A stretch of DNA of 64,000 nt, from assembly GCF_033441515.1 (NCBI RefSeq), contig NZ_JAWQJT010000003.1, positions 1,612,001 through 1,676,000 on the forward strand, read 5' to 3'. Both the position numbers and the translations under genes were made by a program. Position 1 is the first letter of the stretch. Each line of letters starts with the position of its first letter. The notes under the pieces were generated by a model. It was not told where the DNA came from. It was given only the letters and a program-made list of their open reading frames with translations, and made no database searches. Positions 13,082-15,552 of this stretch are shown here, piece after piece. Origin of the DNA: Amycolatopsis solani (lineage in GTDB: Bacteria > Actinomycetota > Actinomycetes > Mycobacteriales > Pseudonocardiaceae).

Positions 13082-13828
13082 ATGGGGGCACGGTTCACGG
13101 GCAAGGTCGTCCTGGTGACGGGCGGCAGCTCGGGCATCGGGCGGGAGACGGCGCGGGCGTTCGCGGCCGAGGGCGCGACGGTGGTCGTCGCCGGGCGGGA
13201 CGAGCAGCGGCTGGCGGCCACGGTGAAGGAGATCGGGGGCGACGCGGTGACCGTGGACGTCACCGACTCCGCCGACGTGGCGCGGATGGTCGAGACGGTC
13301 GTCGCGCGGCACGGCGGGCTGCACGTCGCGGTCAACAACGCGGGCATCCTCGGGTCGCCGGCCCCGGCCGCGGACCTCGACGAGGACGGGTTCGGCGCGG
13401 TGCTGGACACGAACGTCACCGGGACGTGGCTGTGCTTGAAGCACGAGGTCACGCACATGCGGGCGCACGGCGGCGGCGCGATCGTCAACATCTCGTCGAA
13501 CATCGGCGCGCACGGGCGGCTGCCGAACATGGCGGCCTACGCGGCGTCGAAGGCGGCCGTGAGCGCGCTGACCCGCACGGCGGCGCGCGACCACATCGCC
13601 GATCGCGTCCGCATCAACGCGGTCAGCCCGGGCGCGACCGACACCGAGATGTCGCGGCGCCCCGGCGAGACGGACGCCGATCGCGCCGAGCGGCTGAAGG
13701 GCGCGATCCCGCTGGGCCGGGTGGGTGCCACCGCCGAGGTGGCGGCCGCGGTGCTGTGGCTGGCTTCGGACGAAGCGGCCTTCACCGTGGGGCACGACCT
13801 CGTGGTCGACGGCGGCGCGACCGCCTGA
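13082..13828 (+). CDS. SDR-family NAD(P)-dependent oxidoreductase
   Basis: A 248-residue classical short-chain dehydrogenase: cofactor loop VTGGSSGIG (about 11-19), NNAG at about 82-85, catalytic Ser in VNISSNIG, YAASK giving the Tyr and Lys, and the C-terminal substrate loop with MSRRPGE. Asp/Arg residues after the second strand (VVAGRDEQR) suggest NADP(H) preference. It is cotranscribed with the TetR gene 23 bases upstream, which probably senses its substrate; the substrate itself is unknown. Five minus-strand tiny ORFs begin 27 bases after its stop. Confidence 0.93.
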   Translation: MGARFTGKVVLVTGGSSGIGRETARAFAAEGATVVVAGRDEQRLAATVKEIGGDAVTVDVTDSADVARMVETVVARHGGLHVAVNNAGILGSPAPAADLDEDGFGAVLDTNVTGTWLCLKHEVTHMRAHGGGAIVNISSNIGAHGRLPNMAAYAASKAAVSALTRTAARDHIADRVRINAVSPGATDTEMSRRPGETDADRAERLKGAIPLGRVGATAEVAAAVLWLASDEAAFTVGHDLVVDGGATA

Positions 13829-13855: not shown

Positions 13856-13876
13856 TCAGGACTCACGGTTGCGCAT
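13856..13876 (-). CDS. Tiny ORF 5 of array: hexapeptide MRNRES
   Basis: ATG CGC AAC CGT GAG TCC TGA on the minus strand. An AAGGGA Shine-Dalgarno-like stretch lies at 13885-13890, eight bases before the ATG. This copy has CGT instead of CGC for Arg4, a silent change. It is the last copy in the minus direction and is followed by a 5-pair GAGCC/GGCTC hairpin (13841-13853). Confidence 0.6.
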   Translation of the reverse strand: MRNRES

Positions 13877-13920
13877 GGTGACGTTCCCTTCTCGTGCCGG
13901 GCGGTCGGGGTGCGGTGGGG

Positions 13921-13941
13921 TCAGGACTCGCGGTTGCGCAC
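13921..13941 (-). CDS. Tiny ORF 4 of array: hexapeptide MRNRES
   Basis: GTG CGC AAC CGC GAG TCC TGA on the minus strand, with GGAAGGAG at 13948-13955 placed six bases upstream. Same encoded peptide as the other four copies; uses GTG as start. Confidence 0.6.
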   Translation of the reverse strand: MRNRES

Positions 13942-13981
13942 GGGGCTCTCCTTCCGAGCGGTGCGGACAGGTGGGCTCGGG

Positions 13982-14002
13982 TCAGGACTCGCGATTGCGC
14001 AC
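13982..14002 (-). CDS. Tiny ORF 3 of array: hexapeptide MRNRES
   Basis: GTG CGC AAT CGC GAG TCC TGA on the minus strand, with GGAAGGAG at 14010-14017 placed seven bases upstream. The AAT codon for Asn3 is a silent difference from the other copies, and a notable use of a rare AT-ending codon in this genome. Confidence 0.6.
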   Translation of the reverse strand: MRNRES

Positions 14003-14043
14003 GGCGCTGCTCCTTCCGGACGTACGGCGAGGGCTGCGGCGGC

Positions 14044-14064
14044 TCAGGATTCGCGGTTGCGCAC
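14044..14064 (-). CDS. Tiny ORF 2 of array: hexapeptide MRNRES
   Basis: GTG CGC AAC CGC GAA TCC TGA on the minus strand, with GGAGGGAGG at 14070-14078 placed five bases upstream. The GAA codon for Glu5 is a silent difference from the other copies. Confidence 0.6.
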   Translation of the reverse strand: MRNRES

Positions 14065-14110
14065 GACGGCCTCCCTCCGGTGGTCCGCGGCGGACATCGG
14101 ACTCAGGGGC

Positions 14111-14131
14111 TCAGGACTCGCGGTTGCGCAT
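14111..14131 (-). CDS. Tiny ORF 1 of array: hexapeptide MRNRES
   Basis: ATG CGC AAC CGC GAG TCC TGA on the minus strand, with AAGGGAGG at 14140-14147 placed eight bases upstream. This is the promoter-proximal copy; the promoter should lie within 14148-14241, shared with the divergent GGDEF gene. No clear -35/-10 pair could be picked out. Confidence 0.6.
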   Translation of the reverse strand: MRNRES

Positions 14132-14241
14132 GGCGGCAGCCTCCCTTCGCTGCTCCGATCGTGTGGCAATCGTCGATCGCGGCCGCCCGGTGTGGTGTGG
14201 TGGACGCGGATCGTCGGCTCACCCAGGGGAGTTGCACCGCC

Positions 14242-15552
14242 TTGAGTATGGACGGCGCCCGTCCGGACCAGTCCCGGCCGGGCCGGATCCGAGGGGCGCT
14301 GAACCCTGCTCGCTGGACGCTCTGGCGGCAGCGCCGGTCGCTCGTCTTCTACTGCTTCCTCGTCGAGTCCGTGGCGCTCGTGGCCACCGTCTGGACGGCC
14401 GCCGTGGTGCCGGTGCGCGCGTGGGACCTGGCCGTCTTCGGGGTGCTCGCCGGCCTCGGGGTGCTGCAAGCCGAGCTGGGCCGTCAGGTCGAGCGCGTCC
14501 GGCGGCTGGTGTCGGACACCCCGCACATCAACCTGACGTCGGTCTGGACGTTCGCCGGGGTGCTGCTCCTGCCGCCGGCGCTGGTCACGGCGTTGATCGC
14601 CGTCCTGTACACGCACCTGGCGACGCGCAGCCTGGCGCGGATCAAGCGCGTCCCGCCGTTCCGGACCACGCTGAACGCGACGCTGGTCGTCGTCACCTGC
14701 TACTCGGCCGAGTTCGTGCTGAGCCGCCTCGGCATCCCGGACATGTACACGGCGCTGACGGCGGGCTGGCGCGGCGTCACGGCCATCGCGCTCGCCGCGG
14801 CGGCGTACTTCCTGGTCGCGGCGATCACGATCCTCCCGGCGCTGACCATCACGACGCGCTCGGTGAAGGCGTTCTTCGGCGGGCTCGGTGACAACCTGCT
14901 CGAGGTCGCGACGCTCTGCCTGGGCCTGCTCACGGCGCTGACGCTGGCGACACTGCCCGCGCTCGCCGTCGCGATCGTGCCGCCGCTGCTCGTGCTGCAC
15001 CGGGCGGTGCTGATCAAGCAGCTGGAGATCGCGGCGACGACCGACGAGAAGACCGGCCTGTTCAACACGACCGGCTGGCACCTGCTGGCGTCACGCGAGC
15101 TCGCGCGGGCCCAGCGCAGCACGCGGAGCACCTTCGGCGTGCTGATGATCGACCTGGACCACTTCAAGCTGATCAACGACGAGCACGGCCACCTGGCGGG
15201 CGACGCGGCGCTGCGCGCGGTCGCGGCGACGATCAAGTCCGCGGTCCGCGACTACGACTCGGTCGGCCGCTTCGGCGGCGAGGAGTTCGTGGTCCTGCTC
15301 CCGGACATCGGCCCGGCCGCGGTCCTGGCGGTGGCCGAGCGCATCCGCTCGGCGATCGAGACGCTGAAGGTCGAGTACTCCGACGGCACGGCGTCGCGCG
15401 TGATCGGCGACCTGTCGGCGTCCATCGGCGTGGCCACCTACCCGGACGGCGGCACGGCCGTCGACCGCCTGCTGCAGGCCGCGGACAAGGCCCTGTACCG
15501 GGCCAAGGACGCGGGCCGCAACCAGGTGGTCGACGGCACGGCGCCGGCTTAG
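14242..15552 (+). CDS. Membrane-anchored GGDEF diguanylate cyclase
   Basis: A 436-residue protein that should make cyclic di-GMP from two GTP. The N-terminal 250 residues hold about six membrane helices (MASE-like sensor region); the C-terminal domain carries DEKTGLFNTTGWH, the metal-binding MIDLDHFKLIND and the active-site signature RFGGEEF at about 343-349, so it looks catalytically competent. No inhibitory RxxD site is apparent before GGEEF. The TTG at 14242 is ten bases after AGGGGAG (14225-14231); an ATG at 14248 is the alternative. It is divergent from the MRNRES array and its stop overlaps glnD, convergently, by four bases. Confidence 0.88.
   Translation: MSMDGARPDQSRPGRIRGALNPARWTLWRQRRSLVFYCFLVESVALVATVWTAAVVPVRAWDLAVFGVLAGLGVLQAELGRQVERVRRLVSDTPHINLTSVWTFAGVLLLPPALVTALIAVLYTHLATRSLARIKRVPPFRTTLNATLVVVTCYSAEFVLSRLGIPDMYTALTAGWRGVTAIALAAAAYFLVAAITILPALTITTRSVKAFFGGLGDNLLEVATLCLGLLTALTLATLPALAVAIVPPLLVLHRAVLIKQLEIAATTDEKTGLFNTTGWHLLASRELARAQRSTRSTFGVLMIDLDHFKLINDEHGHLAGDAALRAVAATIKSAVRDYDSVGRFGGEEFVVLLPDIGPAAVLAVAERIRSAIETLKVEYSDGTASRVIGDLSASIGVATYPDGGTAVDRLLQAADKALYRAKDAGRNQVVDGTAPA

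Follow-up and report, generated by a model that had tools for sequence, protein, structure and literature searches.

What purpose could be served by five genes of six codons each, lying in a row and all specifying the same peptide? The question is raised by an array (13856-14131) on the minus strand of the window, a 64,000-nucleotide stretch of the Amycolatopsis solani genome, where it sits between the end of an SDR gene and the start of a gene for a membrane GGDEF protein, from which it diverges; the gene next beyond it is convergent. A sequence-only reading had described five MRNRES ORFs at steps of 61-67 nt, each preceded by a ribosome-binding site, with conservation confined to the units. 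The ORFs are confirmed with exact coordinates (Table 1): the five units, of 21 nt each, read start-Arg-Asn-Arg-Glu-Ser-TGA and follow one another at steps of 65, 61, 62 and 67 nt. Purine-rich sites were read upstream of all five, and conservation falls sharply outside the units, ribosome site excepted. When the 10.28 Mb genome was searched for MRNRES units with at most one mismatch there were five matches, all belonging to this array.

Table 1. Features of the micro-ORF locus, in window coordinates, and of the related polyprotein gene elsewhere in the genome
Feature	Position	Strand	Basis or remark
Micro-ORF 1, ATG, MRNRES	14111..14131	-	Sequence reading, genome match, tandem detector
Ribosome site, micro-ORF 1 (AAGGGAGG)	14140..14147	-	Read from sequence; purine block kept among the 176 units
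Micro-ORF 2, GTG, MRNRES	14044..14064	-	Sequence reading, genome match, tandem detector
Ribosome site, micro-ORF 2 (GGAGGGAGG)	14070..14078	-	Read from sequence
Micro-ORF 3, GTG, MRNRES	13982..14002	-	Sequence reading, genome match, tandem detector
Ribosome site, micro-ORF 3 (GGAAGGAG)	14010..14017	-	Read from sequence
Micro-ORF 4, GTG, MRNRES	13921..13941	-	Sequence reading, genome match, tandem detector
Ribosome site, micro-ORF 4 (GGAAGGAG)	13948..13955	-	Read from sequence
Micro-ORF 5, ATG, MRNRES	13856..13876	-	Sequence reading, genome match, tandem detector
Ribosome site, micro-ORF 5 (GAAGGGA)	13885..13891	-	Read from sequence
SDR gene	13082-13828	+	Its end faces the array
Array-DGC interval (116 bp), both promoters presumed here	14132..14247	.	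Strong conservation, alignment of 26 Amycolatopsis loci
Membrane diguanylate cyclase (DGC), 434 aa, presumed peptide receptor	14248..15552	+	GGDEF domain E 9.7e-44; invariant residues
DGC membrane-domain stretch	14413..14958	+	Predicted model, structural match; no Pfam family
GGDEF catalytic domain, residues 263-426	15034..15525	+	Pfam scan
PTDW polyprotein (L226/L286)	Contig C1, 3663719-3663973	Antisense to both neighbours	Between MFS and DGC genes

We collected 176 units from 27 loci in 26 Amycolatopsis genomes (one array is split across two contigs, and the count missed one unit near a contig end, at L164), where arrays comprise 4-11 units. Codons 2-6 differ from those of the majority unit 150 times and all 150 differences are synonymous, against an expectation of 11 silent changes among the 45 possible single changes; the MRNRES units are related by descent, and these counts are therefore of non-independent events. 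The silent-only variation that had been noted within the window thus holds across these 26 Amycolatopsis genomes, and the frequent non-synonymous or frame-breaking changes that would have pointed to a DNA-binding repeat were sought in homologous arrays, where every difference proved synonymous. No residue-changed unit was found in the Amycolatopsis arrays with up to five mismatches allowed, an extra row at L118 being a spacer overlap and not a unit. The 176 units begin with GTG (115), ATG (60) or GTT (1) and all end in TGA, and they represent separate ORFs, as the distances from one to the next (59-95 nt, mean 64.5) are not divisible by three. Arginine is encoded by CGC or CGT in 352 of 352 cases, compared to 57% in five genes of the window, a bias that suggests selection on translation.

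Where residues differ from one lineage to another, most exchanges are conservative (E/D, S/T/N); serine is encoded by either TCN or AGC. Comparison of adjacent units in 36 arrays from all lineages gives 73 synonymous and 14 non-synonymous codon differences, although the detector that found them, which requires at least two SD-preceded micro-ORFs sharing at least four of their last five residues, limits the non-synonymous differences that this count can show. Applied to 30 loci (1.194 Mb of strand-bases), the same detector returned the known arrays only, and it returned no tandem pair in 2.56 Mb of Markov-shuffled window sequence. These results bear directly on the notion that the repeats are DNA-binding sites or a structured small RNA that merely looks coding. 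Their regular spacing, near 62-65 nt in Amycolatopsis, and their intergenic position would suit such an element, but silent-only variation, exchange of start codons, the change of serine codon class and unconserved spacers would not; nor would the folding of the array RNA, which is weaker than that of shuffled sequences (z +2.25), or a comparison with Rfam, where nothing reached the gathering score and the best match (19.9 bits, against a family threshold of 70 bits) lay outside the array. A polyprotein form of the same kind of peptide, described below, is likewise at odds with it. We reject a DNA or RNA element on these grounds and regard it as barely credible.

Arrays are restricted in their distribution. 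The tandem pattern was found in 30 of 390 genomes of the family, these being 26 of 80 Amycolatopsis genomes and all four genomes of one other genus, in which the units read MRNRDS with a V[AS]NRDS unit in first place; an order-wide search recovered the pattern in four of 397 genomes. An ortholog of the window's DGC with at least 85% identity is present in exactly the 26 Amycolatopsis genomes that hold arrays (the nearest named relative, from A. eburnea, is 96% identical). More distant orthologs are accompanied by a single MRNRDS (80-83% identity) or by two MRNRES units (68%), and others by MSNRDT, VRNRET, MRNRDS, MRNREN or three MSRDN units, while no micro-ORF was found at three of the 20 loci fetched. 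Solihabitans has MRNRDT, Kibdelosporangium MDNRDT and Fodinicola five MRNRDT units, again divergent from the DGC. Outside Amycolatopsis the micro-ORF is still divergent from the DGC, and the other neighbours vary. Synteny with GlnD/PII and with Ku is restricted to Amycolatopsis, and we rejected these genes as partners. The SDR was also rejected, as it is present in the MRNRES clade and in one further genome (G008, 87-90%, L299) and SDRs are common. At nine loci of one DGC subgroup (L064-L070, L093 and L283) an SDR that is 33-36% identical to the window's lies near the group of array, MFS transporter and DGC, and may be there by chance, SDRs being common.

The protein that remains beside the micro-ORFs falls within the GGDEF family (PF00990), and its GGEE and RxxD (R334/D337) motifs, the latter of which we take to be the inhibitory site, are invariant across 36 relatives. 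It is predicted to be a diguanylate cyclase and to synthesise c-di-GMP. Its membrane domain models like the S-components of ECF transporters, with a Z score that the tool itself rates as possibly generic; Foldseek returned nothing at E<=0.001 for the N-terminal domain alone, and PF07694 was absent at E<=1 from a Pfam scan of six diverse members. By the positive-inside distribution of loop charges, loops L1 and L5, which are conserved and covary with the peptide, are placed inside. The putative pocket would then face the cytoplasm, which is awkward for sensing from outside. The same membrane domain was detected in 48 of 246 genomes in a class-wide sample, and in a phylum-wide sample of 246 in the window's own genome only.

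A motif-free scan upstream of paralogous DGCs uncovered further peptides: xxNRDN in Thermocrispum (11 units), three MRDRGN units in Herbihabitans, four VSNRDF in A. anabasis and six MRGNSWD in Jiangella, with no micro-ORF at eight of 34 loci. Class-wide additions include MRDNTWT, MRDTTWS (11 units with one variant), MRANSWD, MRDNKWSR, MRHTSWS and MRGVKWA, among others. The membrane domain was present at 159 loci, a number that includes duplicates from one genome; five of these were dropped before clustering because the frame does not reach the GGDEF motif (L041, L056, L177, L242 and L247); L164 has no DGC. Clustering of the remaining 154 at 85% identity produced 91 receptor clusters, of which 36 have arrays, 34 a single motif micro-ORF and 21 neither. 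Tandem arrays lie on the divergent strand in those 36 clusters and on the same strand in none of the 91; for motif micro-ORFs the corresponding figures are 70 and none, compared to three in 445 shuffled kilobases. The motif was defined after the peptides had been seen, and the single calls are for that reason weaker evidence than the arrays. Silent-only variation and these strand counts together lend strong support to the earlier proposal of selection on a translated hexapeptide in several copies, and coding selection on the peptide and its pairing with the DGC family are both well supported by genome comparison.

Some loci depart from the common arrangement. Four that the detector missed carry other repeat or peptide forms (L198, L219, L226 and L254), among them L198, with five repeats of (CTG)RDTNWSW upstream of the DGC that lack the usual start and ribosome site. 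A common divergent micro-ORF, MGDYFR, lies about 160 bp upstream of the DGC at L250 and L258, and since it falls outside the motif, some of the clusters scored as having no micro-ORF may hold unrecognised peptides. One DGC subgroup with the same membrane domain (L045-L048, L055, L057 and L221) has no divergent micro-ORF in the scanned stretch; its signal, if any, is located elsewhere.

If the peptide and the DGC form a pair, which part of the enzyme does the peptide follow? In the 70 clusters for which a peptide was called, once GGDEF distance is controlled for, the distance between peptides correlates with that between membrane domains (partial r 0.41, 0/2000 permutations); with the membrane domain controlled for, there is no correlation with GGDEF distance (0.01, 737/2000). 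The permutations here and below ignore shared ancestry, which inflates all of these values. Because 34 of the peptides had been picked with the motif filter, we added a test on the 36 array clusters, which involve no such filter, and this returned 0.32 for the membrane domain (0/1000) and 0.08 for the GGDEF domain (74/1000). Covariation is evident among the 36 Trp-containing peptides (0.41, 0/1000) and is not significant among the 34 without Trp, to which MRNRES belongs (0.09, 187/1000). The best single columns correspond to model residues 178, 213, 207, 104, 88, 77 and 86, in L1, TM3, TM5 and early TM6. Across the clusters, then, and as far as aligned sequences can indicate, peptide sequence tracks the membrane domain of the DGC rather than its GGDEF domain.

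The window's genome encodes eight DGCs with this membrane domain. Peptide genes lie beside six of them, all different, and none was found beside the other two. Five of these loci have micro-ORFs, encoding MRNRES (five copies), MRGKDQ, MCGRDN, xxNRDL (three) and MSDKGW (three). The sixth has, in the equivalent place and on the equivalent strand, a single ORF of 85 residues with seven PTDW repeats. Of 80 genomes of the genus, 31 encode this precursor, with 5-10 repeats at the fetched loci, where a DGC stands on one side in 30 of 30 cases and an MFS transporter on the other in 29 of 30, the exception ending at a contig edge; the name given to six database relatives is hypothetical protein in every case. 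Because a short peptide in many copies is thus packaged in two ways at one address, the polyprotein beside a paralogous DGC argues that the product of the locus would be a peptide and not a DNA or RNA element. Since paralogous loci carry different peptides, one genome may contain several parallel channels.

At many loci the DGC strand also encodes, on the far side of the array, a transporter from a single MFS subfamily. Eleven members are 36-78% identical, belong to MFS_1 and MFS_3, and match EntS, MefA and Tap weakly, below curated cut-offs. Counting an MFS match on the DGC strand anywhere in the sequence piece as linkage, the transporter adjoins 42 of the 70 clusters that bear micro-ORFs, that is, 25 of 36 with arrays and 17 of 34 with singles, and three of the 21 without. 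When comparison is confined to the 76 of 91 clusters with at least 1.3 kb of flank, which are not phylogenetically independent, the figures are 36 of 56 with and two of 20 without a micro-ORF (Fisher p 4.6e-5). The three clusters that have an MFS gene and no called micro-ORF are L226, with the PTDW polyprotein, L198, with the five CTG-started repeats, and L228, which stands in tandem with L198, so that its MFS probably belongs to the latter. At the MRNRES locus itself no MFS gene is adjacent. Six MFS of this family are encoded in the window's genome, five beside other DGCs and a sixth that is 39% identical to the query, and no clear orphan ortholog that might serve MRNRES was found there. In Fodinicola (L041) the array is followed, on its own strand, by MFS pieces in broken frames, and both there and at L177 the MFS and DGC genes are broken up into several frames beside five intact MRNRDT units.

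The mechanism that we propose is that the tandem six-codon genes, each with its own ribosome site, would give rise to many copies of (formyl-)MRNRES, and that this peptide would serve the membrane DGC encoded divergently from it as a dedicated ligand or regulator, acting on the S-component-like membrane domain and thereby switching c-di-GMP synthesis. That the multi-copy micro-peptide is the cognate signal of the DGC in this sense we hold to be probable. Weighing against it are the non-Trp peptides, whose covariation is not significant, the 21 of 91 clusters in which the detector found no micro-ORF, the MRNRES locus with its missing MFS, a topology that fits poorly with outside sensing, and the possibly generic S-component match. 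Translation in vivo, binding, export, the direction of the effect, the side of sensing and the cellular output are what we infer from the genomes. The divergent DGC and, in many related loci, the MFS transporter are partners that lay beyond the view of the sequence-only reading. At many related loci the transporter would complete a module of signal, exporter and receptor-enzyme, and the peptide may therefore leave the cell as an autoinducing, pheromone-like signal, while paralog-specific peptides would supply parallel channels. An advantage of genes of only 6-8 codons may be that ribosomes retranslate such ORFs without leaving the mRNA. Among the functions that had been suggested, the best fit is a signal peptide whose dose is set by copy number, with its secretion or import a presumption.

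The topology inferred for the membrane domain, together with the missing MFS at the MRNRES locus, is the reason that we retain a second account, in which the peptide is not exported at all; translation capacity and proteolysis would set its level, and an inverted S-component-like domain would read that level from inside the cell, coupling translation to c-di-GMP. The charge pattern that puts loops L1 and L5 inside agrees with this, as does the cytoplasmic origin of leaderless peptides, but linkage to MFS in 42 of 70 clusters would go unexplained if nothing were transported, and the topology is itself a prediction. We consider this account unlikely. It is more doubtful still that the peptide is exported for a role of its own, as an antimicrobial or another small ribosomal product, with the DGC controlling its production or the sensing of rivals and not acting as receptor. 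The precedent would be microcin C, with its 7-codon precursor gene and export pump, and the relatives of the MFS are drug and siderophore exporters, scoring below curated cut-offs. Against this, no modifying enzyme recurs; when 26 loci were compared, no family apart from DGC, MFS and overlapping frames occurred in more than five, and those common to 3-5 loci were confined to close relatives or to overlapping DGC/MFS frames, except one group of three and the SDR. A modification enzyme was rejected as partner on this basis, and the suggestion that the peptide is a precursor for one is not borne out across the lineages of these 26 loci. Peptide sequence is also tied more closely to the DGC membrane domain than to the transporter. 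In the 43 clusters with an MFS, peptide distance is related to MFS distance given the GGDEF domain (0.31, 0/1000); given the MFS, the relationship with the membrane domain is 0.28 (0/1000), compared to 0.09 (17/1000) for the MFS given the membrane domain.

Short ORFs with ribosome sites also invite interpretation as leader peptides or uORF attenuators, whose translation would control a downstream gene, and the Fodinicola locus, where the broken MFS pieces are downstream on the array strand, might be cited in favour. At the MRNRES locus, however, the next gene is convergent and there is no same-strand gene downstream to be regulated, so that a ribosome-based sensor acting in cis, as had been entertained, is unlikely here. 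In most loci with an MFS gene, that gene shares the strand of the DGC and is antisense to the array, and neither as many as 11 units nor a polyprotein form would be expected of an attenuator, which we rejected and judge highly improbable.

Returning to the peptide as signal of the DGC, several known systems resemble the proposed arrangement in part. In the Rgg/SHP systems of streptococci the gene order is divergent, the receptor is a cytoplasmic transcription regulator, and the peptide precursor is longer and processed. The likeness lies in a very short peptide gene beside a receptor gene, with a separate exporter; the differences are that the paired protein here is a membrane GGDEF protein, that the genes are tandem and of 6-8 codons, and that the predicted output is c-di-GMP. 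In agr, peptide, export function and membrane receptor are encoded together, the output is through a histidine kinase, and the peptide is processed and cyclised, whereas here the output would be through a DGC and no processing enzyme was found. According to PMC5167397, SHP peptides are exported by the separate exporter PptAB, and according to PMC3679016 there are several Rgg/SHP copies per genome. The microcin C precursor MccA is described as the product of a 7-codon gene (MRTGNAN), formylated and with its own pump MccC, its short length favouring repeated translation by ribosomes that stay on the mRNA (PMC6495379). The 6-8-codon genes and linked MFS are comparable, the MRNRES locus excepted; but microcin C is an antibiotic and needs the adenylating enzyme MccB, no equivalent of which recurs in the 26 loci compared, and the gene here is tandemly repeated and paired with a DGC. 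Receptors of the S-component fold (5TMR/LytS-type), some with GGDEF output in the account of PMC11109136, may share with the DGC a membrane domain that models like an S-component, fused to a signalling output. They differ in that no PF07694 match was found in the six members scanned, in the pairing with peptide genes, and in that loop charges here suggest an inverted orientation with one additional helix at either end.

The components are of known broad kinds (a GGDEF enzyme, an MFS transporter, a short peptide, an S-fold-like receptor), and their combination, architecture and private pairing match no family that we can name. The sequence-only reading knew of no described system of this kind, and none emerged from the literature searched, mostly non-subscription papers with preprints outside its scope, which held no account of peptides from tandem micro-ORFs that pair with a diguanylate cyclase, or of tandem repetition as a means of dosing a leaderless peptide. 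On balance we lean, if only slightly, towards a new signalling class, in which a private mini-peptide would be the ligand of an adjacent S-component-like membrane DGC, often with its own MFS exporter, six paralogous channels would converge on one second messenger and gene copy number would set the dose. To our knowledge, the activating signal of most membrane diguanylate cyclases is unknown; at loci of this type, candidate ligands are encoded right beside the enzymes with which they are paired, and the hosts are antibiotic-producing actinobacteria. Development and secondary metabolism in Streptomyces are reported to be governed by c-di-GMP (PMC6205966, PMC7026642). The arrays also indicate an unannotated layer of genes, as ORFs of six codons are missed by ordinary gene finding.

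Two further features of the arrays concern individual units. In one genome (G039; L124/L158) GTT replaces the start codon in one of eight MRNRES units, the remainder being intact. Across the MRNRES loci (L116-L141) the first and last units mostly begin with ATG and the middle ones with GTG, while codon 4 of the last units is mostly CGT, so that, judging from these patterns, the array ends look stable and the middle appears to expand and contract.
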